Source: a virus. From it: a stretch of DNA of 35,003 bases. Below, in pieces: positions 21,173-35,003 of this stretch (its first letter is position 1; each line of letters starts with the position of its first letter). The stretch covers positions 1-35,003 of the IMG/VR virus record IMGVR_UViG_3300042691_015253. One strand, written 5' to 3'. The notes under the pieces were generated by a model. It did no database searches. It was given only the letters and a program-made list of their open reading frames with translations, and was not told the DNA's origin. A program made the translations under genes and the position numbers.

Positions 21173-21516
21173 GAGAACAGCCCCTGGAGGAGCGGGCTCA
21201 CCACCCCAAGCCGCGACGACGCCAGCTTGCGCTGCTGGTCCTCTGCCTGCGACATTTGCTGTAGGCCGGACAATGCCAGCGCTTGCTTGGCTTGCAGCTG
21301 TTGCAGTTCAGCGTCAGAGTTTGCCTTGCTGGCAGCGGCGTCGAAGCCGGCGGCGTTGATGCTGCCGGCGGAGTCCAAGATGTCCTGCTGGTTCTGGCCG
21401 TACGCTGCGTATGGCGACCGCATCCGCAGCCCGGCAAGAGCGTCGGCACGCTGCTGCTGGGAGTAAGGGAGCGGCGGATTAAACGACGAGTCGTACGTGA
21501 TCACTGTGTCACCCAC
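21169..21516 (-). CDS. Gln/Ala-rich small virion protein candidate
   Basis: About 115 residues from GTG at 21516, which overlaps the upstream stop by 8 nt; TTG at 21558 gives 129 residues but no better ribosome binding site. Starts VGDTVITYDSSFNPPLPYSQ, then a Gln/Ala/Ser helix (NSDAELQQLQAKQALALSGL, QQMSQAEDQQRKLASSRLG) ending PLLQGLFS. The ending resembles the next gene's GGLL end, so both may bind the same particle surface. Function unknown. Confidence 0.5.
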   Translation of the reverse strand: MGDTVITYDSSFNPPLPYSQQQRADALAGLRMRSPYAAYGQNQQDILDSAGSINAAGFDAAASKANSDAELQQLQAKQALALSGLQQMSQAEDQQRKLASSRLGVVSPLLQGLFS

Positions 21517-23398
21517 GCGCTGGACGACGGACCGGCTGCGGCCTGTTGTAGGAGGCAAGCATCTGGCTATTCCATAACGCTCGCTGATCCCGCGAACGCT
21601 GGTCGCTGGCGTCCTGGATCGCCCACTTCTCTTGCATGTCAGCCATGTTGGGGTTGTTGGTCATGTTGCGAGCGATGCGGCCGGAGTCGTTGCGGAAGTT
21701 GTCGTACATCCCCATAACGCCCCTAGACGCCCGGTCCATTCCGCCGCTGATCCCACCAATGGTCTGGTTAAATCCAGACCCAAGCTGGCTCATCGCCGCG
21801 CCGTAGCCACTGCCAAGCCGGTTCCCCGTGGAGTTGAACCCGGCGCCCATAGTGTTCGCGAACGATCCAAGCTGGGCCTGGGTATCCCGGTTTCCGGCGC
21901 TCATGTCGCGAGCCGTGTTGCGGTAGCTGGTGCCCATGTCCCGGGCCGCCGAGGCGATCTGTGGCTGCAGGCCGGCATACGCCTGTCCCATCATGGCGGA
22001 CGTTCCGATCAGCCCCTCGCCCATGCCGCCAGCAAAGCCGCCAAGCTGTGACTGGGCTCCTGCATAGCCAGACGTCAGCGCGTCCAGGATGGCGGACTGA
22101 TTGGTGCCGCCTCGCCCCTGCGCCGCATAGAACTGGTCCATCCCTCGCCCAGCGGTGCCGTAAGCATCTCCAGCCAGACCACGCAGCCCCATGAGCGACT
22201 CCTGGAGCATCGCCGCAGGCTGGCCGCGAGACGACATGTGCTGCGAGTTGAGTGATCCAAGGCCGTTCGCGTAGTTGGACGACAGACCGTCAGAGACGTC
22301 CCGCTCCATCAGGTTGGACTGCAGGCGTCCCAGCCCGCCGAACGTCGGCCCGGCAAACTGCTCAGGCCGTCCGCCAGACTGCTTAGTAGCCTGCAGTCCC
22401 ATTCCGCCGGCCGATCCAGATCCGCCGTAAGTGCCGCTCGCCAGCGGGCCGCTTACGCCAGTGGCGTTAAACGCCGCCGAACCAGCTCCAGAGCCACCGT
22501 CAGACATGGAGGCGCTGGTGTCGGAGTACATGCTGGCATCCGCGAGGCCCTTGCCGGCAGCGGCATAAGCGCCGCCCAGGTTGCCAAGCGCGGCGCTGCG
22601 GTTGGCGCCATAAGCAGAGAGGGCCTGCTGGTTGGCAGACGTCATGTCTGCAAGTGCGGAGTTGTACGCCGTCTGGTTTGCTCCCCACGCACCAAGCGCA
22701 GAGTTCGCTGCGCTACCATATGCCCCCAGTGCGGCAGCGCCGATGTTGCCCATCGCGCCCTGCCGGGCCGCCTCGGCCATGGCGTTGGCGCCGTACAGGT
22801 TGGACCGCTCATTCGCCGCAGCGGTTGCGGCGTTTCCGAGCCCGGTCGCATAAGCGCCATAGGCGTTGGCGGCGCTGTTGCCCAGGGCGCCCATGCCCTG
22901 GGCGTATCCGGTGTAGGCGTTGCCAAGGTTTCCCGTGTACGCAGACGCGGCGTTAGCGGACGTATTCACAAGGCCGCCAAGGCCCTGCATGTAGCCGCCG
23001 AACGCATTGCCAAGACCGCCCATGTATGCGGCGTTGGACGCGGCGGAGCTAGAGCCCAGCGATCCCAGCCCTTGGGTATAGGCGCCGTACGAATCTCCCA
23101 GGCCCTGCGAGTACGCGCCATAGCCCGCACCTACGCCGCCGGCCAGGGAGTTGTAGGCACTAGCCAGTGAAGGCGCTGCAGCACCGTACATTCCACCGAC
23201 GGTGTTGGCGAACGACGCCGGCTGCGTCAGCAGCGTCGAAAGGATGTTCGCCTGCGCCGCCGGCACGGACTGGTTGGCAGCAGCCTGGGCGCGGCCCGCG
23301 GCCTCAGCCTGCGTAGCACGCACCATCGAATCGTTCTGGTGCGCCTTGGTCGCTGCAAGCTGACCAAGCGGATCGCCAAAAAACTGGTACTGGGCCAC
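21509..23398 (-). CDS. Repetitive Gly/Ala/Tyr-rich virion protein
   Basis: 629 residues from GTG at 23398, with AGGAGA 7 nt upstream. After a short helical start, residues about 60-300 are imperfect repeats of Y-x-x-G-L-G-x-x-x type (SYGAYTQGLGSLG, NAFGGYMQGLGGL, NAYTGYAQGMGALG, NAYGAYATGLGNA). Residues 420-560 are similar but Gln/Arg-richer (LGSFANTMGAGFNSTGNRLG). The end is charged (WAIQDASDQRSRDQRALW). The composition is that of a flexible fibrous or membrane-active particle protein. It opens the post-nozzle cluster and its third-codon repeats are not tandemly exact, so duplication is old. Confidence 0.6.
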   Translation of the reverse strand: MAQYQFFGDPLGQLAATKAHQNDSMVRATQAEAAGRAQAAANQSVPAAQANILSTLLTQPASFANTVGGMYGAAAPSLASAYNSLAGGVGAGYGAYSQGLGDSYGAYTQGLGSLGSSSAASNAAYMGGLGNAFGGYMQGLGGLVNTSANAASAYTGNLGNAYTGYAQGMGALGNSAANAYGAYATGLGNAATAAANERSNLYGANAMAEAARQGAMGNIGAAALGAYGSAANSALGAWGANQTAYNSALADMTSANQQALSAYGANRSAALGNLGGAYAAAGKGLADASMYSDTSASMSDGGSGAGSAAFNATGVSGPLASGTYGGSGSAGGMGLQATKQSGGRPEQFAGPTFGGLGRLQSNLMERDVSDGLSSNYANGLGSLNSQHMSSRGQPAAMLQESLMGLRGLAGDAYGTAGRGMDQFYAAQGRGGTNQSAILDALTSGYAGAQSQLGGFAGGMGEGLIGTSAMMGQAYAGLQPQIASAARDMGTSYRNTARDMSAGNRDTQAQLGSFANTMGAGFNSTGNRLGSGYGAAMSQLGSGFNQTIGGISGGMDRASRGVMGMYDNFRNDSGRIARNMTNNPNMADMQEKWAIQDASDQRSRDQRALWNSQMLASYNRPQPVRRPARG

Positions 23399-23431: not shown

Positions 23432-24385
23432 CTAGCAATACACCACAGGTACTGCTTGGGTGACCGTTTCTTTTGGCTTGATCTCGCAGTTTTCGTCCAG
23501 ATAAAACTCTGGGATTTCGGCGTATCCGTTCTCACCGTCGTTCCCCGGCGGCCCCGGCGGCCCGGGGCGACCAGGCAGCGTCAGGATGGTGGTCACTCCG
23601 TCCTTCCCGTTTCGGCCATCCCTTCCGTTGCGGCCGTCTCGGCCCCAAACGCCGTCGAACCCGTCTCGCCCATCGATGCCATTCCATCCGTTGATGCCGG
23701 CATCTCCAGGAGCGCCAGCTGGCCCAGCGGCTCCGTCGAATCCGCTGGTCCCGTTGAGGCCAGGGATTCCAGCGGCGCCGGGGCTTCCGGCAGGTCCCGC
23801 TGGACCGGCGAAACCAGGCGTTCCCGGGGCCGGGTAGTTGTTGATTGTGGTGGTGTTGACGTTATTTGTGGTGAACGAGTTGCTGTAGGCGTTGTTAAAT
23901 ACCGTATCGCCAGCCACGTTAAACGTGGGCCCACCATAGGTTGGGTAGGTATTGAACGCCTGCGAGAGCGGGAAGTTAAATGTGTCGCCGCCGTAGTTGT
24001 AAACACTCGTTGTGCTGCCTGGCTGGCCAGGGATCTCAATGATTCCTGTCAGGCCGTTCTGCCCGTCAAAGCCATCAAAGCCATTGAGCCCATCCCGCCC
24101 GTCCTGGCCAGGAAACAACGGCCCCAGGGGGATCGGATCCCACGGAGGATCGCCGCCGCCGCCAGGCCCGTACCCGCCAGGCAGGTAACCACCACCAGGG
24201 CCTGCTCCGTATACGCCATTGCGTTGAAATGGCGAAAGGCTGGGCTGGATGCTGACGTTGCCGCGGTGCGTGATTGGCTGCGCGCAGTTGCCGAACACCT
24301 GCATCAGCGATTGCGCCATCTGCGGCGTCAGCTGAGTGCCGGCCAGACGGGCCAGCGCCGGCATGTTCTGGGTGTCAAACGCCAT
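23432..24385 (-). CDS. Collagen-like virion protein
   Basis: 317 residues; ATG overlaps the upstream stop (TGATG). An N-terminal helical head (1-45) and a Gly/Pro linker lead to two Gly-X-Y tracts, about 93-126 (GQDGRDGLNGFDGFDGQNG) and 188-287 (GTPGFAGPAGPAGSPGAAG, GRDGRNGRDGRNGKDG, GRPGPPGPPGNDGENG). They are separated by an Asn/Thr/Tyr beta-like block (FTTNNVNTTTINNY). The second tract is followed by a short Cys-containing tip (CEIKPKETVTQAVPVVYC). Such triple helices form trimeric tail-fibre shafts or collars. A distinct trimerisation tip is not recognised. Confidence 0.85.
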   Translation of the reverse strand: MAFDTQNMPALARLAGTQLTPQMAQSLMQVFGNCAQPITHRGNVSIQPSLSPFQRNGVYGAGPGGGYLPGGYGPGGGGDPPWDPIPLGPLFPGQDGRDGLNGFDGFDGQNGLTGIIEIPGQPGSTTSVYNYGGDTFNFPLSQAFNTYPTYGGPTFNVAGDTVFNNAYSNSFTTNNVNTTTINNYPAPGTPGFAGPAGPAGSPGAAGIPGLNGTSGFDGAAGPAGAPGDAGINGWNGIDGRDGFDGVWGRDGRNGRDGRNGKDGVTTILTLPGRPGPPGPPGNDGENGYAEIPEFYLDENCEIKPKETVTQAVPVVYC

Positions 24386-27300
24386 CAGCCAACACCCTCA
24401 ATGTTGATGGCTCGCAGCACAACCGGCTCTGAGGCGGTTCCGGAGAACATCGCAGCCATATGCCTGTCTCCGCCAGACGAACTGACGTCAGGGCTGCGGC
24501 CAGAGTAGCTGGCCCTTGCAACGCCGCTTGAGTCGCCCAGAGCGGACCTGGTGAGCTTCATGTTGAGCGTGGACGCTCCCCCATCGGCTGCGACGAACCC
24601 GCTCCCCCTGTCGCTGAACACTGCGTTTGCACGCGGCGTGGCAGAGTTGTTGTACGCCAGCTGGAGCGAGAGCGTGGAGTCGTTGGTTGTGGGCTTGTAC
24701 AGGACCGTGATCGACCGGCTCCCGTTGTCGTTGGTGAGCGGGAGTTCTGCGGTGCGGTACGAATACGGGATGGCAGACCCACTGTCGGATGACCCGGATG
24801 ACTTGAGAATCGACCCGGAACCACCGCCATACAGCGGCACCTTCCGTCCGGAAATCTCCACGTAGCATCCCGCGGTAACGGGGGAAGCAAACGTCTCTTC
24901 CCACCACGCCTTGGTAGAAACGCAGTAGCACAGAGCGCGGCTTGTCCCGGAGTCGCCGGCCCGGCGGTAGAAGAACCGCACAACCCTCGCGGCGGTGTCA
25001 GCCTGCACGTGGAAGGTGCTAGCGGCACTGAAGTCGATCAGCCCGTCTCGCCAGTAGTTATCGACTGGGACAGAGACGGCATCTTCTGACTGGCCGTCAT
25101 ATGCGTACATGCCGAACGAGTCCACCAGGAACGCGACGCCGCCAAGCACGCACCAGCAGCGATTGTTGAGCGCGCCGCGGTAGGCGCCGAGGACGATGGC
25201 CGCATCAATGGCCGGTTGAGCCACGTACGAAAGACGGTATAAGTGCGACGTTTGCACCAAAAGCAGCGACGGGCCCAGTGGAACCATGGCCACAAGTTTG
25301 TCCGGTTCCCCGGTGTTCTCTTGGATGACCAGCTCGTTGTCGGCTGGAACGGACTCAGGCTCGTCAATCTCCGAGAACATCACGGCGTTCTGCCGTTCTC
25401 CAGTGCTGTCCACGCCGTACCACGCCCGGTCCTGGAACATGCAGGCCACCTGGAACTCAGGCGGCGGCACTGCAAACCGGCGAGCGTTGACCTGGCCGGA
25501 CGGCAGGGTGATAGGCATAAGCCCATACCCAGGCCGAACTGCACTGGTCAGCGAGGAGTCGCTGAGCGTGTCCACGTACGGAGCAAGGCCAGAGATCGCA
25601 AGCGTGGCCACGCGGAACAGGACGACGGACTGGTCTGCCGTGGTGCGCCACAGCTCCACGTGCGTAGCACGGGCGTCTGCGTGGGATGTGTCGATGGTCC
25701 ACGTGATAGACCCCGCACCGCTGGGGACGTTGACCTCTGTCATGTCAGAGATCACGGAAGGAATCGGACCGCCGTTCTCTGGCGATGTGGCGTCCAGGTA
25801 GCGGAAGCAGCACTTGTACTTGCCGCGGAGTGTCGCCTGCATCGTCGCAGACACCCGCGACGAGGTGTCAAGGACTGTCGCCGTCGGAGGCACGGAGTAC
25901 GCGCCGCCTGCCAGCACCGTTACGCCTGTGATAGACCCGGTGGAATCGACACTGCACGTTAATGCAGCCCCGCCGCCGAGGCCGTCTGTCTTGTCAGGGA
26001 GAACCGAGATGATCGGTGGGGTCATGTAGCCAGTTCCGCCGCTGGCCGCAGACACTGATGCCACCGAAAAGAACTGGTCCACCTCAAAGATCCGCAGCGC
26101 CGTCGCCCCCTTGAGCGATGCGGTGACACCAGACTGCGTGCATCCAGTGCCGGACGAAGAGACAACGACGCCTTCGATCCGTCCGTTGCCGGCAATCACA
26201 AGCCTGGCGTTCTGGCCGGTCAGGCCGTTGGTGTTGTGCCACTGGATCGCGGCACCAGACGTCACAGTTCCACCAAGCACAGCGGTGGCAATGGCGGAAG
26301 CAGAGGGAGAACCCCCGGAAAGCGAAACGGTCGGCGCCGCGGTGTATCCAGACCCGGAGTTGGTGACGAGGATGCTCGCAATGCGCGTGTCCATCACTGC
26401 CGTGGCGGATGCGCCGGAACCACCACCCCCGGAGAACGACACGGCCGGAGAGGTGGTGTACCCGGATCCAACGGCAGACACGTACAGCGTCCCCACCGCC
26501 GTGCCGGCCAGCTCGCAGGTTGCCGCTGCGCCTGTCCCGCCGCCGCCGGAAAACGAAATCGTTGGGGCGACCGTATATCCCGTGCCGCCAGCCGCCAAAG
26601 ACAATGCACTGACAACCTTGTGCGTGACCGCCGAGGCTGATGCCCCGGTGCCACCGCCGCCAGAGAACGAAACAGTCGGAGTGCTGGCGTACCCGGAGCC
26701 GCCGTTTGGAACACTGACGACGGCCACCTGGTCGGCGCCGGACGAAATGACGCGGACTCGGCTGATGCCGCCAACCACATTGAGGGTGAACGCCGCAGAA
26801 GAGCCGATGCCAGACGCGAGCGACACCGCAGGCGTTGACTGATATCCCTCGCCTGGGTCTTCCACAACAACTGTGGATACCCGTCCGTTGGCAATCTGTG
26901 CCCTTGCTTGGGCGGCGCGTGTCGGAGAGCCTCCCGTGAACGTCACGGACGGCGGGTTGTTGTACCCAGCCCCTGCGTTGACGATCTGGACGGCCTTAAC
27001 CTCATATCTCGCAGACGTCCCTGTAGCGATGGCTGGCCCAACGCACGGCGGAGCAACGCCAATCGGCTGGGCAGACGCCGCCACGCCGTCCCAGCGAAGG
27101 CCACGCCCCATGCCGTCCACGCCGTATACATCACCGTTGCGACCGCGGAAGAACGTCAGGTATTTCTGGCCGGATTGCACGTAAGCTGTCGCCGCCGCTC
27201 CCGTCCCGCCACCGCCTGAGAACGTAAGCGACGGAGCCGCCGTGAATCCGGTCCCCTGCGACTTGACCAGGAGGTCGGCAACGCGGGTGCCGGCCATTAC

Positions 27301-27432
27301 AGCGACAACCGTAGCTCCAGTTCCGCCGCCTCCGCTGATCGCAATAGCCGGAGGGGAGGTGTAGCCAGAGCCGCCTGATGCGACCTGGACCTTGACGATC
27401 CCGCCGGACGAGCGGTTGTAGATGACGGTCAC
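24385..27432 (-). CDS. Tail nozzle / beta-propeller protein with inserted SGYT repeats
   Basis: 1015 residues from GTG at 27432 (GTGA overlap). Residues about 537-1015 show the layout of P22 gp10/T7 gp12-like nozzle proteins: RYLDATSPENGGPIPSVISD, VMFSEIDEPESVPADNELVI, LGPSLLLVQTSHLYRLSY, VLGGVAFLVDSFGMYAYDGQ and WWEETF. A piece of the same type, YLTFFRGRNGDVYGVDGMGR with LRWDG, lies at 90-115. About eleven copies of a roughly 39-residue repeat, GGSGYTSPPAIAISGGGGTG-like, occupy 12-88 and 148-537. The missing N-terminus seems to be the preceding 88-residue ORF. It closes the DNA exit of the tail. Confidence 0.7.
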   Translation of the reverse strand: MTVIYNRSSGGIVKVQVASGGSGYTSPPAIAISGGGGTGATVVAVMAGTRVADLLVKSQGTGFTAAPSLTFSGGGGTGAAATAYVQSGQKYLTFFRGRNGDVYGVDGMGRGLRWDGVAASAQPIGVAPPCVGPAIATGTSARYEVKAVQIVNAGAGYNNPPSVTFTGGSPTRAAQARAQIANGRVSTVVVEDPGEGYQSTPAVSLASGIGSSAAFTLNVVGGISRVRVISSGADQVAVVSVPNGGSGYASTPTVSFSGGGGTGASASAVTHKVVSALSLAAGGTGYTVAPTISFSGGGGTGAAATCELAGTAVGTLYVSAVGSGYTTSPAVSFSGGGGSGASATAVMDTRIASILVTNSGSGYTAAPTVSLSGGSPSASAIATAVLGGTVTSGAAIQWHNTNGLTGQNARLVIAGNGRIEGVVVSSSGTGCTQSGVTASLKGATALRIFEVDQFFSVASVSAASGGTGYMTPPIISVLPDKTDGLGGGAALTCSVDSTGSITGVTVLAGGAYSVPPTATVLDTSSRVSATMQATLRGKYKCCFRYLDATSPENGGPIPSVISDMTEVNVPSGAGSITWTIDTSHADARATHVELWRTTADQSVVLFRVATLAISGLAPYVDTLSDSSLTSAVRPGYGLMPITLPSGQVNARRFAVPPPEFQVACMFQDRAWYGVDSTGERQNAVMFSEIDEPESVPADNELVIQENTGEPDKLVAMVPLGPSLLLVQTSHLYRLSYVAQPAIDAAIVLGAYRGALNNRCWCVLGGVAFLVDSFGMYAYDGQSEDAVSVPVDNYWRDGLIDFSAASTFHVQADTAARVVRFFYRRAGDSGTSRALCYCVSTKAWWEETFASPVTAGCYVEISGRKVPLYGGGSGSILKSSGSSDSGSAIPYSYRTAELPLTNDNGSRSITVLYKPTTNDSTLSLQLAYNNSATPRANAVFSDRGSGFVAADGGASTLNMKLTRSALGDSSGVARASYSGRSPDVSSSGGDRHMAAMFSGTASEPVVLRAINIEGVG
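25822..27399 (-). repeat. About eleven SGYT/SGGGGTGA protein repeats
   Basis: The encoded unit is about 39 residues (117 nt): V-x-x-G-G-S-G-Y-T-x-x-P-x-V-x-F-S-G-G-G-G-T-G-A-x-A-x-A-x-V, then 8-10 variable residues. Two copies precede and nine follow a nozzle-like segment at 27018-27168. Units 5-8 are the most alike; 4 and 9-11 are degenerate. The DNA copies are diverged, so this is not recent slippage. The repeats keep long antisense frames open, which produces false plus-strand ORFs. Confidence 0.8.
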
Positions 27433-27695
27433 TGCGGCCCCCTGGCTATGCGGACACTCCCATCTGCACCCTGGTACACAACAGCGTCAGGCGAGCCAGG
27501 GAGACGCATCATTCGCACCACCGCCGCTGTGCTGCCTGTGTGCGACGTAAACGTGACCGCCGATGTGCCAGGGCGAAGCGATATCTGCCCGGGTGCGATG
27601 ACCTGCAGGTTGACCTGCGTGACCGCGGCACCGGGAGGTATGGCATAGGGGCTGGCGTTCGTTACCAGCCCAGCCCACTTGTCGATGACGATCAT
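27429..27695 (-). CDS. N-terminal piece of the tail nozzle protein
   Basis: 88 residues from ATG at 27695 (ATGA). DKWAGLVTNASPYAIPPGAA, VTQVNLQVIAPGQISLRPGT and VVYQGADGS match how gp10/nozzle-type proteins begin (G-L-x-T-x-x-x-P-x-x-I-P-P-G-A, N-x-x, G-x-L-x-x-R-P-G). It ends ARGPQ at a TGA overlapping the GTG of the next ORF. Either the nozzle is made as two coupled polypeptides or the +1/-1 overlap reflects a split that occurred when repeats were inserted. Confidence 0.6.
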   Translation of the reverse strand: MIVIDKWAGLVTNASPYAIPPGAAVTQVNLQVIAPGQISLRPGTSAVTFTSHTGSTAAVVRMMRLPGSPDAVVYQGADGSVRIARGPQ

Positions 27696-28822: not shown

Positions 28823-29133
28823 TACGCGGACTCCTGCGGCAGCATGCCAACCGCCCACTCCAGCGGCACAACCTCCACCTGCGCCATCAGCTCAGGGGTG
28901 ATATGCGAAAACGCCCCAACCAGCAGGCCGTCGTCGCCTACCTCGCTGAGAACATCCCCGCACAGCATCCACGTGCCATCGGTAAGCTGCCGGCCGACTG
29001 GCACATGCCGTGGGTCGCCAAAGGATTCCTGAATGCCGTAGAGCGTCACGGCGATTTCGTAACTGTAGACCAGCGCCAGCTGCCGCGAGTCTTCGTATGT
29101 CATCGGAAGCGTTAGATCAGCGAGCGTGGTCAT
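28822..29133 (-). CDS. Small hypothetical protein between adhesin and adaptor
   Basis: 103 residues from ATG at 29133 (ATGA). TYEDSRQLALVYSYEIAVTL, GDPRHVPVGRQLTDG, TWMLCGDVLSEVGDDG and LLVGAFSHITPELMAQ. Mixed alpha/beta and acidic, with no recognised motif. Position suggests a tail or connector accessory protein, or a chaperone for the adhesin. Confidence 0.55.
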   Translation of the reverse strand: MTTLADLTLPMTYEDSRQLALVYSYEIAVTLYGIQESFGDPRHVPVGRQLTDGTWMLCGDVLSEVGDDGLLVGAFSHITPELMAQVEVVPLEWAVGMLPQESA

Positions 29134-32100
29134 ACGGCCCTCCCCAGTGCGCGCTGGAAGTCCTGCATCGCGGTGTTAAACGCCGCCGCCTCCGCGTCCG
29201 TCAAGCCGGAGCCGATGCTGTATCCGCGAAGACGCTCTGCGGTGAACCCTTGCGCGTAGTCACTTCCGCCGGAGGTGGCACCGTCATTGAACGCAAACAC
29301 AAACACAGGCAGATTCAGAAGGGTTGACGAGGTTGCTGCGGCGGTTGCCTTCTGCGCACCGTTTTCGTAGATGGCCTGCGTGGAAGATACGCGCGACCCA
29401 AGCACAAATCCGCCAGATGCTGTGGGGCTGTAAGACGCTGGCGAGTCCACACCTCCGCCACCGAAGGCGTAATACGCACCGCCGTAAAACTGGTGAGACG
29501 AAGACACCCTGGTCAGATAAAACCTGTCCGCGGGATCGCCGGAGACAACATCAGCGCTGGTCATGCCGATGCGCGCGCGACTGCCTGAATATGCCGCGAC
29601 ATACGCGGATAGGTGCCTGTCAGTTGCCGACAGCACGTTGCCGGCAAGGCCGGTGTTTAGGTACTTGCTAGTTCCGTTGCCAAGAAGACCGCCGCTCGCC
29701 CCCGTTTCTGCGTAGTCTCCGCTGACGAATGGGCCGTTGTTGGTGTCCAGCGCATTGCCATACTGTGTTCCGCCAAGCGAAGGCCCCCTGTACAGAGGGA
29801 CAAGGCAACTGTTCAGGCCCGCAGCCGAGCCGTTGGAGCCGCCGCAGAAAAGGTTGAGCCTGTAAAACTTTGAGCGGAGGCCCGCGGCGTCGATTGCATT
29901 GCAAAAGCGGTTCACTGCTTCGGCAGTGCTGGCGCTTACGAACCCGCCGTTGTCATACACCCGGTCCACCCAACCGGCGGCATCGGCGTTGGACGCGCTT
30001 GGCGCAGTCGTTGGGAACGGCGCTGCTGGCGGAGTGAAGCCTGCGACATATCTCGCCACGCCGCGAGTAACGCGCACCTCGTCATAGTGATGGCCGGGGT
30101 TGTCAGGCCGGATGCGATAAGTGAGGTCTTTAGGCAGATTGGCCGTCGAAGTGCCGCTTCCCACCTGCACGCCGTCGCGGAATATGCGGAACGTGGAGCC
30201 TCCAGACCTTGTGATGGCGATGTGATACCACTGATTCAAGTTCCATGTCAGGGCCGCCGAAGCGGCGAACTCAAGCCCGTACCTTGCCGCGACGATTCTG
30301 TTGTCGCTCTGGACATAAGCGATCAAGTACTGCGAACCAACGCCATGATTTACTGGCGACCAAAATGTCACGCCGCCAGCGCTAACAGGGAAGCTGTTGG
30401 TCGTCCTCATGTACCAGAGTTCGATGGTGAAGTCGCCTGTTGAAAAACCAAACGGGAACCCAGCGAACGACAAGAAGTCGCTTGTGGAGGCTGCTCCGTT
30501 GAGCGCCTGACCAAACTTCCCTACAGACGATGTGACTGCCGCAGCCCCGTTCGCTGTGACTGTGCGTGCGTGCCGCGAAGTATCCGGAAACGAGGTGCTG
30601 CCGTTGGCGCCGTCCATCGACAACAACAGCGCCGTGCTAGCGAAGAACGGATCGGACGAGCCGGCGTCTTGGAACGGGGCAGTCAGCGCCGTGAACGTCG
30701 CCGTGTAGCGGGCGATGCCGCGAGTCACGCGGAACTCGTCTATGTTCCCTGTGAAATAGCCTTCGCTGCCTGCGTATGCCATGGCGCCCACGCGCACAAC
30801 GGCTGTGGAGTTCTGTATGGTGGCAACCGCAGATCCACTGCCCAGCAGAACCCCATCAACAAAATGCAGCACTGTAGTGCCGACGCGGGTGACGGCGAGG
30901 TGATACCAAGTGTTCAGCGACGGCGTCCACGCAGAGGTGGCCGTTGCAAACACTGAATCGCTGGAGAACGTAATAAGCTGCAGGCCGGTTCCAGCGCTGT
31001 ACCGCCACTGGAAGCCGCGGCCGGCTGTGCCGTTGAAGTCCTTGCCACACAACTGGATGATCCCGGTTGCATCAGAGAACCGGAACCAGCCCTCAAGGGT
31101 GAAGTCGCCGGCGCCAAACTCAAAGACTTCATTGTCGGCCACTTCTAGATAGTCGCCGTTGCCGTCAAGCAACAGGCTGGCCCCACCAAATCGACTGTGC
31201 GCAGTGCTGATCTGTGAGTTGCCGGCAGCGCTGACAGGGAGCGCGAGCGGCGACGAGTCGGTGAATGTGGTGCTGCCGTTGAGGCCGTTCATGTGCAACA
31301 GCAGCGAGACGCTGGTCAGGTACGGGTCGTCTACCGCAGAAGGCTCAACTGGCGTTACTGCCGCCGAAGCCGACGAGTAGTCGCCCTGCCCAGCCGCGCT
31401 TACCGCCGCCACGCGAAACACATACGCAGTGCCGTTGGTTAAGCCAGTAACGGTTGCGGTCGTCGCCGTCGATGTGCCGTCGCTGAAGGTCGTCCAAGTG
31501 GACCCGGAGTCGTTGCTGTACTGGATCACATAGTCGGTGATGCTATTGCCGTTGTTCGCCTGCGGCGTCCATGACAGGGAAACAGACAGGTTGCCGGCCA
31601 CGCCAGATACGCCAGTGGGAGCAGACGGCGGAAGCGACGGCGTGATCGAAGCTGAATCGGTGGAGTAGGCACCAATACCGGAAACGCCAACCGCCGCCAC
31701 CCGGAAGATATGTGCGGTTCCGTTCGTCAGCCCGGTGATGGTGGCGGATGTGGAGGTGGATACGCCGTCATAAACCACAGCCCAGCTCGCACCTCCGGTG
31801 GTGCTGGCCTGCACAACGTAGTCGGTGATCGTCGCACCGTTGCTGGCCGGCGCGGACCAAGACAGAGAAACCTGCGAGTCGCTTGGCGTACCCGTCAGGC
31901 CGGTGGGGGCGTTTGGGACGGGCTGCGGAGTGACAGACGCCGACGAGTCCGAGTACGGACCTGTGCCGCCCGCATTGGTCGCCGCCACCTGCAGCACATA
32001 TGCAGTGCCGTTGACCAATCCTGGAACGATTGCAAACGTCGATACGCGGCTGTCAGGGAACCTAGTCGCACGCGGGGCGAACGACGACGAATACCTCGCC

Positions 32101-32960
32101 ACGCCAGAGGTGATCCTTACCTCGTCTATGTTTCCCGCGAATGGGTACACCTGCGTTGACACCGCCCCGGCGCCGATCCGCAGCGGAGCGGTGGAGTTAG
32201 CAAGCGTCCCCATGGTCGAATGCGTCGATTCGCCAATAAGAACGCCGTCAACAAACGACGAGAAGGTGGTGCCAACGCGGCAGAGCGCGATGTGATACCA
32301 AGTGTTGATCTCTGGCGTCCAACGGTCGGCCTTGGTGGAAAAGCCGCCGACGGAGTTGAACATCAGGAAGTCAAGGCGAGGCGACGTTGTGCCTGCGTAT
32401 CGCAACGCCCACCCGCGTGAGCCTGTCGAATCCTTGCTGATTATGTTCTGAGGCGATGTCCCCAGCGACGAGAACCGCACCCACGCCTCAAGCGTGAAGT
32501 CGGAAGTGCCGAAGTCGAAGAGCGCGTTGTCGGCAAGCTCCAGATATGAGGTGCTGCCGTCCAGGTACAGGCTGGATCCGCCAAACTTGCTCTGCGAAGA
32601 ACTGGAAGCAGCCGCACCGGCAGCAGTGGCAGTGAGCCCATTCGCAGACGAGTCTGTAAGCGCACCGTCGAAGTGCATGAGCAGCGAGACGTTTGAGAAG
32701 TACGGGTCCGTCTCTTGGGCGCCAGCCAGCGTTGTCCAAGCCCCGCCGGCGCTTGGGCGGTACTGCACCGAATACCCGGTGATCGGAGAGCCATTGTCCG
32801 CGGGGGCAGCCCACTCAGCGATGACTTGCGAGTCACGGGCGTAAACATCTGGCCCAAAAGGGGGCGGCGCTTGCGTGCCAGACGGCGCATCCGGAAGTGG
32901 GATGAACGTCGCGGAGGACGTCTCCGGTATAGGGCGCAGCAGGCGAGGGGAGAGCGGCAT
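29130..32960 (-). CDS. Large adhesin / tail fibre with FnIII and LamG-like domains
   Basis: 1276 residues from ATG at 32960, 1 nt after the previous stop. Layout: FnIII-1 split at 26-83 and 306-345; LamG-1 at 84-305 inside it; FnIII-2 at 348-441; FnIII-3 at 446-537; LamG-2 at 544-766; LamG-3 at 768-983; C-terminal domain about 990-1276. FnIII marks are SDSQVSLSWSAPASNG and GLTNGTAYVFRVAAV. LamG marks are FTLEAWVRF, NTWYHIALCRVGTT, FVDGV and DEVRITSGVARY. The tip has YRLNLFCGG, CLVPLYRGPS and FQRALGRAV, a domain I recall from environmental phage proteins. It probably binds host surface glycans. It precedes the adaptor and nozzle rather than following the tail genes. Confidence 0.85.
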   Translation of the reverse strand: MPLSPRLLRPIPETSSATFIPLPDAPSGTQAPPPFGPDVYARDSQVIAEWAAPADNGSPITGYSVQYRPSAGGAWTTLAGAQETDPYFSNVSLLMHFDGALTDSSANGLTATAAGAAASSSSQSKFGGSSLYLDGSTSYLELADNALFDFGTSDFTLEAWVRFSSLGTSPQNIISKDSTGSRGWALRYAGTTSPRLDFLMFNSVGGFSTKADRWTPEINTWYHIALCRVGTTFSSFVDGVLIGESTHSTMGTLANSTAPLRIGAGAVSTQVYPFAGNIDEVRITSGVARYSSSFAPRATRFPDSRVSTFAIVPGLVNGTAYVLQVAATNAGGTGPYSDSSASVTPQPVPNAPTGLTGTPSDSQVSLSWSAPASNGATITDYVVQASTTGGASWAVVYDGVSTSTSATITGLTNGTAHIFRVAAVGVSGIGAYSTDSASITPSLPPSAPTGVSGVAGNLSVSLSWTPQANNGNSITDYVIQYSNDSGSTWTTFSDGTSTATTATVTGLTNGTAYVFRVAAVSAAGQGDYSSASAAVTPVEPSAVDDPYLTSVSLLLHMNGLNGSTTFTDSSPLALPVSAAGNSQISTAHSRFGGASLLLDGNGDYLEVADNEVFEFGAGDFTLEGWFRFSDATGIIQLCGKDFNGTAGRGFQWRYSAGTGLQLITFSSDSVFATATSAWTPSLNTWYHLAVTRVGTTVLHFVDGVLLGSGSAVATIQNSTAVVRVGAMAYAGSEGYFTGNIDEFRVTRGIARYTATFTALTAPFQDAGSSDPFFASTALLLSMDGANGSTSFPDTSRHARTVTANGAAAVTSSVGKFGQALNGAASTSDFLSFAGFPFGFSTGDFTIELWYMRTTNSFPVSAGGVTFWSPVNHGVGSQYLIAYVQSDNRIVAARYGLEFAASAALTWNLNQWYHIAITRSGGSTFRIFRDGVQVGSGTSTANLPKDLTYRIRPDNPGHHYDEVRVTRGVARYVAGFTPPAAPFPTTAPSASNADAAGWVDRVYDNGGFVSASTAEAVNRFCNAIDAAGLRSKFYRLNLFCGGSNGSAAGLNSCLVPLYRGPSLGGTQYGNALDTNNGPFVSGDYAETGASGGLLGNGTSKYLNTGLAGNVLSATDRHLSAYVAAYSGSRARIGMTSADVVSGDPADRFYLTRVSSSHQFYGGAYYAFGGGGVDSPASYSPTASGGFVLGSRVSSTQAIYENGAQKATAAATSSTLLNLPVFVFAFNDGATSGGSDYAQGFTAERLRGYSIGSGLTDAEAAAFNTAMQDFQRALGRAV

Positions 32961-33288: not shown

Positions 33289-33809
33289 TTCTTCCTCTTC
33301 AGGGCGTGCTTGGTGAGAACCATTTCCCGCAGCTCCGCGGTCTTCTTCCCCGGGTGCAGCTTGCGATAGTGCCGGATGTCTTCTTGGATGATGCGCTCGC
33401 TCAGGGCTGGTGGCTTCTGGGGGATCTGGGTGCCTTTGTGGTTGACGATCCCTTCCACGGTGAGGTTCCGTTTCTTGGCGACACGCAGAACGTCCGCTGT
33501 TGAGTCCACCCACGCCTCCGGGTCCCGGTGGGCCCTGAGGTCCGCCAGTCCGCCAACGTAAGTCTTCCCATGAGGATTAATGCCCGCCGCACGGGCCTCG
33601 CGGAGAATCCTTTGGGCCTGGCGCTTTGGCATGTCGTCCAGCCACTGGTCGTTCAGGCGGCCCTCCATGAACGCCCGGTCCGTTCCGCGGGTGCCTGGCG
33701 GAGTCTGCGTTGCCACCATGAGGGCCCACCGCTCGCCGTAGGGCAGGGCACGGGTGTAGGTTTCCACGGCGGCAGAGCCGAGGTCACTGACTTCCTGGGG
33801 GACCTGCAT
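33285..33809 (-). CDS. Hypothetical protein next to the portal
   Basis: 174 residues from ATG at 33809, overlapping the portal gene by 26 nt; GGAG is about 10 nt upstream. QVPQEVSDLGSAAVETYTRA and RLNDQWLDDMPKRQAQRIL at the start, then INPHGKTYVGGLADLRAHRD, AKKRNLTVEGIV and a basic end (LKRKK). Helical and charged. I know similar proteins beside environmental-phage portals but no function; scaffold or small-terminase-like roles are possible guesses. It is coupled to the beta-rich gene. Confidence 0.5.
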   Translation of the reverse strand: MQVPQEVSDLGSAAVETYTRALPYGERWALMVATQTPPGTRGTDRAFMEGRLNDQWLDDMPKRQAQRILREARAAGINPHGKTYVGGLADLRAHRDPEAWVDSTADVLRVAKKRNLTVEGIVNHKGTQIPQKPPALSERIIQEDIRHYRKLHPGKKTAELREMVLTKHALKRKK

Positions 33810-35003
33810 TGGGTGCCGGCTCCTGTTGTGGCGGTGGTGGAGGCGGAATCAGGTACTTGGTGACGTCGATGTCCATGGCTCGCCCCCAGTCCTCCAGGAG
33901 GGCGTTCATCAGGCCCGGCTGACCGGCCTGGAGCAGGCCCTGAGCGATGGGCGCCATGATCTGGAGGGCCTGGTTGATCTGCTCCACCTTGGTGCCCTTG
34001 TTGGGCTTCCGGGCGGAACCGGCCTCAACGCGGAAGTCGAACTCCCGCAGGACCTCGTCTGGGTTCATGGCCTGGACATGCATCTGCCACGCCTGGGCAG
34101 CCATCGGCCCCAGGAGCGGCGCGACGTCTTCAGGGTTGACCAGCCACCTGGCCAGGAACGCTTCCTTCCTGGCGAGAGACGACAAGGCGTCTTCCAGAGT
34201 GTTGGCCATGTCGTCTGGCCGCACAGAGATTTGCTCAGCCTTAGTGACTGCCTCTGCAGCACTCCTAAACTGGTTCCTGGACATACCATAAACCAGCTCT
34301 GTCAAACCCACTCGCCGGTCAAACAGCTCCGTAACCGCGGCGATGATGTTCCACATGTCGGACGAAACGCCCGGCAGATTGAACACCGAGATGATGTCGT
34401 TGACATTCCGGCCGATGGCCTCGCTGATCTCAACGATCTTGAACCCGGATTCGTCAGAGTCCAGGATCTTTGCCTTGAGGTCGTTGTCCGCGGCCTTGGC
34501 TACACCAATCATGGTGCTTGCGGAGGTGGCGATCTTGGTCGCCATGAAGCTCATCGCGTAGTTGATGAACCGCAGCTCGCCAATGCCGGGCTTGATGAGC
34601 GAGATGGGGTACGAATACCCCGGCTTGCCGTGCCACTGGAGGACGGTGCAGGGCCATCCCTCTGGCTCGGCCCAGAACGGCACGGGCCACTGAGCGGCCT
34701 GGAAGAGCGACGGCGGGATGCCGCTTTCGTCCACTTCCTCCTGGAGGATCTGCGGCGGAATGTTCAGCGGGTACTCAACGCCCTCGCAGACCACCAGATA
34801 GCAGTACGCGCCAAGGGCATCGAACTTGCCCCGCAGCTCTTTGTCGCTGTCCTTGAGGCGGTCGCCAAACCCTACCTTGCTGTAGACCTCCCAGTAGGTG
34901 ACGAGGTCCATGGACTTGCCGTTTCGGCGGCGAGTCTTGTAGCCCTGCTCGTCAGCCTTGCTGCGGGACTCATAGCTCTCAGAGGAGCCCTTAAGGTCTT
35001 CGA
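33784..35003 (-). CDS. Portal protein, C-terminal part (5' end outside window)
   Basis: 405 residues are visible; the frame is open to the edge, and a Met codon at 34911 is internal. Segments MDLVTYWEVYSKVGFGDRLK, AAQWPVPFWAEPEGWPCTVL, YPISLIKPGIGELRFINYAM, EISEAIGRNVNDIISVFNLP, GLTELVYGMSRNQFRSAAEA and the helical barrel with a Pro/Gln-rich end match podovirus-like head-tail connector (portal) proteins. Portals form a dodecameric DNA channel and start assembly. The terminase genes should lie just beyond the right edge. Confidence 0.72.
   Translation of the reverse strand, partial: EDLKGSSESYESRSKADEQGYKTRRRNGKSMDLVTYWEVYSKVGFGDRLKDSDKELRGKFDALGAYCYLVVCEGVEYPLNIPPQILQEEVDESGIPPSLFQAAQWPVPFWAEPEGWPCTVLQWHGKPGYSYPISLIKPGIGELRFINYAMSFMATKIATSASTMIGVAKAADNDLKAKILDSDESGFKIVEISEAIGRNVNDIISVFNLPGVSSDMWNIIAAVTELFDRRVGLTELVYGMSRNQFRSAAEAVTKAEQISVRPDDMANTLEDALSSLARKEAFLARWLVNPEDVAPLLGPMAAQAWQMHVQAMNPDEVLREFDFRVEAGSARKPNKGTKVEQINQALQIMAPIAQGLLQAGQPGLMNALLEDWGRAMDIDVTKYLIPPPPPPQQEPAPNAGPPGSQ

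Follow-up and report, generated by a model that had tools for sequence, protein, structure and literature searches.

The window analyzed here is the whole 35,003-nucleotide stretch of IMG/VR virus record IMGVR_UViG_3300042691_015253. One of its ORFs encodes a protein of 1015 residues in which glycine-rich SGYT repeats are interleaved with a segment of the tail nozzle type, and the gene directly upstream encodes only 88 residues. The locus thereby raises the question of how these repeats and the small gene relate to a nozzle. Our main reading, to which we assign a probability of about three in four, is that an uncultured short-tailed phage completes its nozzle in trans from two overlapping genes, those of an N-chain and a C-chain, with the repeats attached outside the propeller.

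Table 1 Features of the putative two-chain nozzle locus. Positions refer to the window, residues to the C-chain.
Feature	Position	Strand	Basis
Nozzle N-chain gene, 88 aa	27429..27695	(-)	Separate ORF conserved in 83 distinct relatives
AGGGGG, Shine-Dalgarno-like sequence 5 nt before the GTG start	27438..27443	(-)	Predicted anti-SD duplex -9.4 kcal/mol
GTGA overlap of the N-chain TGA stop with the C-chain GTG start	27429..27432	(-)	
Nozzle C-chain gene (long ORF), 1015 aa, GTG start	24385..27432	(-)	
SGYT repeats 1-2 at the C-chain N-terminus, residues 11-46 and 50-85	27178..27402	(-)	Repeat HMM
Propeller blade segment, residues 92-132	27037..27159	(-)	Profile matches P22 gp10 90-124 (14.6 bits, 0/2000 shuffles)
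SGYT repeats 3-4, residues 145-179 and 184-219	26776..27000	(-)	Repeat HMM
Four extra SGYT repeats, residues 235-385	26278..26730	(-)	Present only in the window, L001, L002 and L003; low model confidence
Degenerate or weaker repeats near residues 418-444, 457-495 and 500-533	25834..26188	(-)	HMM for 457-495, weak for 418-444, by eye for 500-533
Putative Ig/FN3-like β domain closing the insertion, residues 534-645	25498..25833	(-)	Seven strands in the model
Rest of the propeller and C-terminal platform, residues 649-1013	24394..25488	(-)	VIA-align Z 14-18

The initial annotation had named the long ORF as a tail nozzle protein, and this identity holds. No Pfam family matches the long ORF. AlphaFold2, run with 25 aligned sequences, yielded a model of the window protein with a pLDDT of 68 and a pTM of 0.34, poor for the four extra repeats; predicted from the long ORF alone, it contains a nozzle-type propeller core at residues 649-1013. 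In a Foldseek search of this model against the PDB, the top 21 matches were all tail nozzles of short-tailed phages, among them those of SU10, Pa223, the cyanophages A4, Pan3 and Pam1, and those of VP1, phicrAss001, P22, T7 and others. When the core was superposed with VIA-align, Z scores ranged from 14 to 18 (VP1 included), with 17.9 for residues 109-506 of the Pa223 nozzle, 16-17 for SU10 and 14 for P22 gp10. The rmsd over the full span was mostly ~14 Å, presumably because the relative orientation of the domains differs, whereas 225 residues of SU10 superposed at 2.8 Å. Furthermore, 21 of the 25 family members match PHROG 3287 (best 2e-11), the family that the SU10 nozzle gp17 matches at 8e-116. 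Searches of PDB sequences with the long and short profiles returned a weak match to the Pa223 nozzle and otherwise unrelated proteins such as aspartokinase. Taken together, the Foldseek, VIA-align and PHROG 3287 results make the assignment of the long ORF as a podovirus-type tail nozzle well supported by model and profile.

Parts of the protein outside the core also resemble nozzles. In a model of the relative L004, the stretch that separates repeats 2 and 3 gives matches to individual propeller blades, and Vibrio phage nozzles align with the long ORF from near the start of the region at residues 534-645 onwards. The Pa223 nozzle (PDB 9nwi), the best VIA-align match of the core and aligned from its residue 109, differs in being one chain of ~513 residues. 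P22 gp10 (head closure Hc3, PHROG 578) shares the core fold, and its blade at residues 90-124 matches the blade of the long ORF by sequence, but it is a single chain of 472 residues without SGYT repeats. The SU10 nozzle gp17 (Kuravirus; PDB 7z47, 7z4b and 7z4f) has, in addition to the propeller core and PHROG 3287, extra tail-tip β domains placed between its early blades (PMC9509320). Unlike the protein described here, it is made as one polypeptide, and its inserts are Ig-like, not SGYT.

The SGYT repeats had been described as two units on one side of the nozzle segment and nine on the other, and both their number and their placement proved real. The YLTFFRGRNGDVYGVDGMGR segment occupies residues 91-110. 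A repeat HMM, seeded from the window and iterated over the relatives, identified two units before it (11-46 and 50-85) and seven after it (145-179, 184-219, 235-269, 274-306, 315-347, 350-385 and 457-495) at a cut-off of i-E < 0.01. A weak unit lies near 418-444 and a degenerate one, recognized by eye, near 500-533, giving a total of ~11 repeats, or 2 + 9, two of the nine being degenerate. The unit measures 36-39 residues. None of 200 shuffled copies gave a match to the HMM, and within the window the SGYT repeat is confined to this ORF. A tandem repeat search of the DNA over the same region detected nothing, which indicates that the repeats are conserved as protein and are not recent DNA duplications.

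The initial annotation had proposed a profile search for the 39-residue unit as a check. In profile comparison the repeat matched PHROGs 701, 19630, 708 and 460 (E 4e-57 to 2e-33), the values for PHROGs 701/19630/708 including 4.4e-57 and 1e-43. The same repeat thus occurs in SGYT proteins of T4-like cyanophages and is widespread in cyanophage tail proteins. There, however, the carriers belong to cyanomyophages, as baseplate proteins or other structural components, and are not nozzles of podoviruses.

To describe the fold of the repeats, we used the model of the repeat region of L004, whose protein is 62% identical to that of the window in the best segment. This model has a pLDDT of 88 and shows three strands per repeat, of uneven length. 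Against the PDB it gave no significant match of any kind (best E 0.23), and no solved β-solenoid was recognized among the PDB matches listed. Its best local VIA-align match was to the T4 sheath protein gp18, where a compact domain covers two repeats, at a Z of 6.7, which is below the meaningful level. Among predicted viral structures, it matched cyanophage proteins and two deposited proteins of uncultured phages that carry the name P22 Gp10. The model therefore suggests a string of small β domains, perhaps of two repeats each, and does not support a β-solenoid. A reading of the repeats as the propeller blades themselves found no support in the fold matches of the L004 model either; the repeats sit outside the core. 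The statement that known nozzles lack such repeats is correct for SGYT in the nozzle sequences checked here, but it is too broad, since SU10 and T7 carry added domains of their own and the predicted repeat fold matches the deposits named P22 Gp10.

Domains inserted into nozzles are an already known theme, in which the SGYT repeats fit. SU10 has four Ig-like nozzle domains between blades 2 and 3, which straighten to extend the tail (PMC9509320), and in T7 a tip domain grows from a loop of blade 3, while the first propeller strand closes blade 1 (PMC6702177). The main SGYT array occupies the site of the SU10 nozzle domains, and it is therefore most likely that the repeats make up the distal nozzle or extend it. 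By analogy, and with blade numbers assigned by comparison, the main array would be the nozzle domain of this phage family.

The standard architecture among the relatives places two repeats ahead of the blade and about six behind it, to which the window and L001, L002 and L003 add about four more after the blade. In L005, L014 and L032, an unrelated insert replaces the extra SGYT repeats after repeat 4. A further insert, of different sequence, lies between repeat 2 and the blade segment in L023, L033, L037, L042 and L043.

What the repeats do can only be approached through these comparisons. They may be passive spacers that lengthen or stiffen the nozzle, a serious possibility somewhat short of an even chance and one compatible with the two-gene reading. 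The change in copy number while the core stays unchanged and the mechanical role of the SU10 nozzle domains (PMC9509320) point in this direction, although the strongly conserved glycine-rich turns could mean more than spacing. The initial annotation had instead favored β-solenoid or blade extensions projecting from the tail tip, perhaps as an adhesin. The position it gave them survives, as the repeats lie outside the propeller core with the main array at an SU10-like projecting site, in a loop expected to extend at the tip; the FN3-rich arrays on the nozzles of relatives and the variable copy number would also suit adhesion. The solenoid itself finds no support, given the confident L004 model without a solenoid match, its strands of uneven length and a best local match to a compact domain over two repeats, and we consider a solenoid or blade-like adhesin unlikely.

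We then turn to the junction of the two genes. The IMG/VR loci provided 83 distinct junctions, none of which (0/83) contains a fused short and long ORF. Stop and start overlap at 82 of them, as NTGA (34), TAATG (33) or TGATG (15), and the remaining one, TGA-C-ATG in L224, leaves a 1-nt gap and sets the long ORF in the other frame. The predicted anti-SD duplex averages -5.7 kcal/mol at the C-chain start across the family, compared with -2.9 inside the ORF. Since 4-nt overlaps are common in the operon (5 of 14 neighboring gene pairs), the overlap of the nozzle genes is in itself ordinary and reflects the usual packing of the phage. The unusual feature is that such an overlap runs through a nozzle.

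Programmed -1 frameshifting could in principle fuse both ORFs, the 88-residue product being the unshifted form, and the long ORF indeed lies in the -1 frame at 82 of the 83 junctions. However, any stop/start overlap forces this frame, and L224 is in the other. Moreover, 75 of the 83 loci have no slippery heptamer in the last 60 nt, and most of those found are one motif, GGGCCCG; the two frames overlap by only 13 nt in several relatives; a start codon and an SD signal are kept at the junction; and the short ORF of four relatives is extended by ~1,100 residues. The lack of any fusion, the SD signal and the few slippery heptamers make separate translation much likelier, and we regard frameshifting as very improbable.

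The short ORF had been taken as a detached piece to be joined to the long one; it is instead conserved as a gene of its own in all the relatives examined. The short-ORF profile matched the Zobellviridae nozzles T4S1 and 521E56 at residues 15-57 and T2S1 ORF30 at residues 15-84, each with 0/2000 shuffles reaching the score. The T4S1 nozzle, a single chain of 896 residues, additionally matches the long-ORF core at its residues 467-603, and the two matches follow each other in the expected order. These proteins (T4S1-k141_776450 ORF57 and that of Vibrio phage 521E56-1) are annotated as tubular protein B, are encoded just after tubular protein A or a head completion adaptor, and differ from the pair described here in being one chain of ~900 residues without SGYT repeats. 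A tblastn search with the short chain of one family member, covering 50,697 phage records and 2.3 Gb of phage DNA, gave weak matches (E 0.1 to 10), the majority of them in genes annotated as tubular protein B, head-closure protein or tail appendage. In the three loci that we opened, the match was N-terminal in a gene following tubular protein A or a head completion adaptor, with one small ORF intervening in two of the three. In P22 gp10, 89 residues precede the blade-matching region at 90-124, close to the 88 residues of the short chain. When the joined profile was compared with P22, its match at 57-124 proved to depend on the blade half. The P22 gp10 relatives retrieved for a deeper profile were all at least 94% identical and of no use. 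From these sequence matches, the short ORF corresponds to the N-terminus of single-chain nozzles. That the 88-residue protein is instead a separate small tail component outside the nozzle fold, as its always being its own gene and the failure of its profile alone to rise above shuffles against the P22, T7 and SU10 nozzles might suggest, is likewise a very improbable reading, given its match to the N-terminus of Zobellviridae single-chain nozzles, with the long-ORF core matched in one of them as well, and given that the length absent from the C-chain equals its own.

In the two-chain reading that we prefer, the 88-residue N-chain would supply the N-terminus of a one-chain nozzle, probably the first platform strands and blade 1, and the 1015-residue C-chain the remaining blades and the C-terminal platform, with the break falling just before the second blade. 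Translation of the C-chain would start at the overlapping stop/start from its own Shine-Dalgarno sequence. Both chains would thus be made side by side and assemble non-covalently, closing the propeller in trans, presumably within a hexamer. For the strands that close blade 1 (the velcro strands), the observation is the sequence homology of the short chain to nozzle N-termini. The SGYT repeats would form small three-stranded β units outside the propeller. Two of them would sit on the N-terminus that the break gives the C-chain, and about nine would separate the blade from the Ig-like domain.

The tree of the relatives gives a view of how this arrangement may have arisen. All 54 rows are split, while the first two repeats are present in only part of them; they are absent from 14 rows (two deep clades and L028), all of which are still split. 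The tree needs two changes. If the tree is rooted at its midpoint, a root that serves only for display, the split predates the first two repeats, and L028 lost them later. Extended N-chains, with ~1,100 further residues, occur at L196:5001-8699, L224:1514-5086, L260:1057-4725 and L261:1048-4725, and are FN3-rich (Pfam run on three of the four). With SGYT repeats on the start of the C-chain and FN3 domains on the end of the N-chain, the break offers two free ends on which different phages hang different domains. The best reading is that surface domains came to be attached at the chain ends created by the break. This would outline a route of domain gain at tail tips, in which a new pair of chain ends appears and then acquires SGYT repeats on one end and FN3-rich arrays on the other. 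A scan of genome contigs for the locus returned one relative, L127:5700-8900, a frame-broken copy on the Pirellulaceae-binned contig JAGYIQ010000016.1 that looks like the product of sequencing errors.

In solved phages the nozzle is one chain, whereas the uncultured short-tailed phages of this large group appear to build it from two. The new element is this division of a nozzle between two genes throughout a phage group; literature searches for a split nozzle found none, which does not prove that none has been described. Pressurized DNA is retained by the nozzle, which acts as its gate, and the way this gate opens has yet to be settled; for T7, local movements of loops are thought to be insufficient (PMC6702177). 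A two-chain nozzle with its break near the closing blade of solved propellers offers a natural test of whether this closure must be covalent. One could speculate further that the velcro blade is provided in trans, that the non-covalent seam acts as a release latch for DNA ejection and that the chain ends serve as sockets for swapping adhesive or extending domains, a combination that we consider unlikely. For annotation, an "88-aa hypothetical protein" and a "virion structural protein" in these genomes would together be one nozzle.

A nozzle that apparently consists of two genes was also seen in the Zobellviridae phage T2S1-k141_477764 (L368:2559-4876), where ORFs of 371 and 397 residues are separated by a clear AGGAGG followed by an ATG. 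This is possibly an independent nozzle split at a different position, or else an assembly error.

Finally, we inspected the genes around the nozzle in the window. A portal is encoded at 33784-34911 (E 5.5e-5), and a 388-residue ORF upstream of the nozzle, placed as an adaptor would be, had no adaptor match. The ORF at 29130-32960 (-) encodes 1276 residues with LamG and FN3 domains and resembles the arrays fused to the N-chains of relatives. Directly after the nozzle, at a TGATG junction, lies a collagen-like ORF (23432-24385, (-)) that is likely a fibre, and at 21509-23398 (-) a Gly/Ala/Ser-rich ORF of the virion operon encodes 629 residues with repeated GLG-type motifs.
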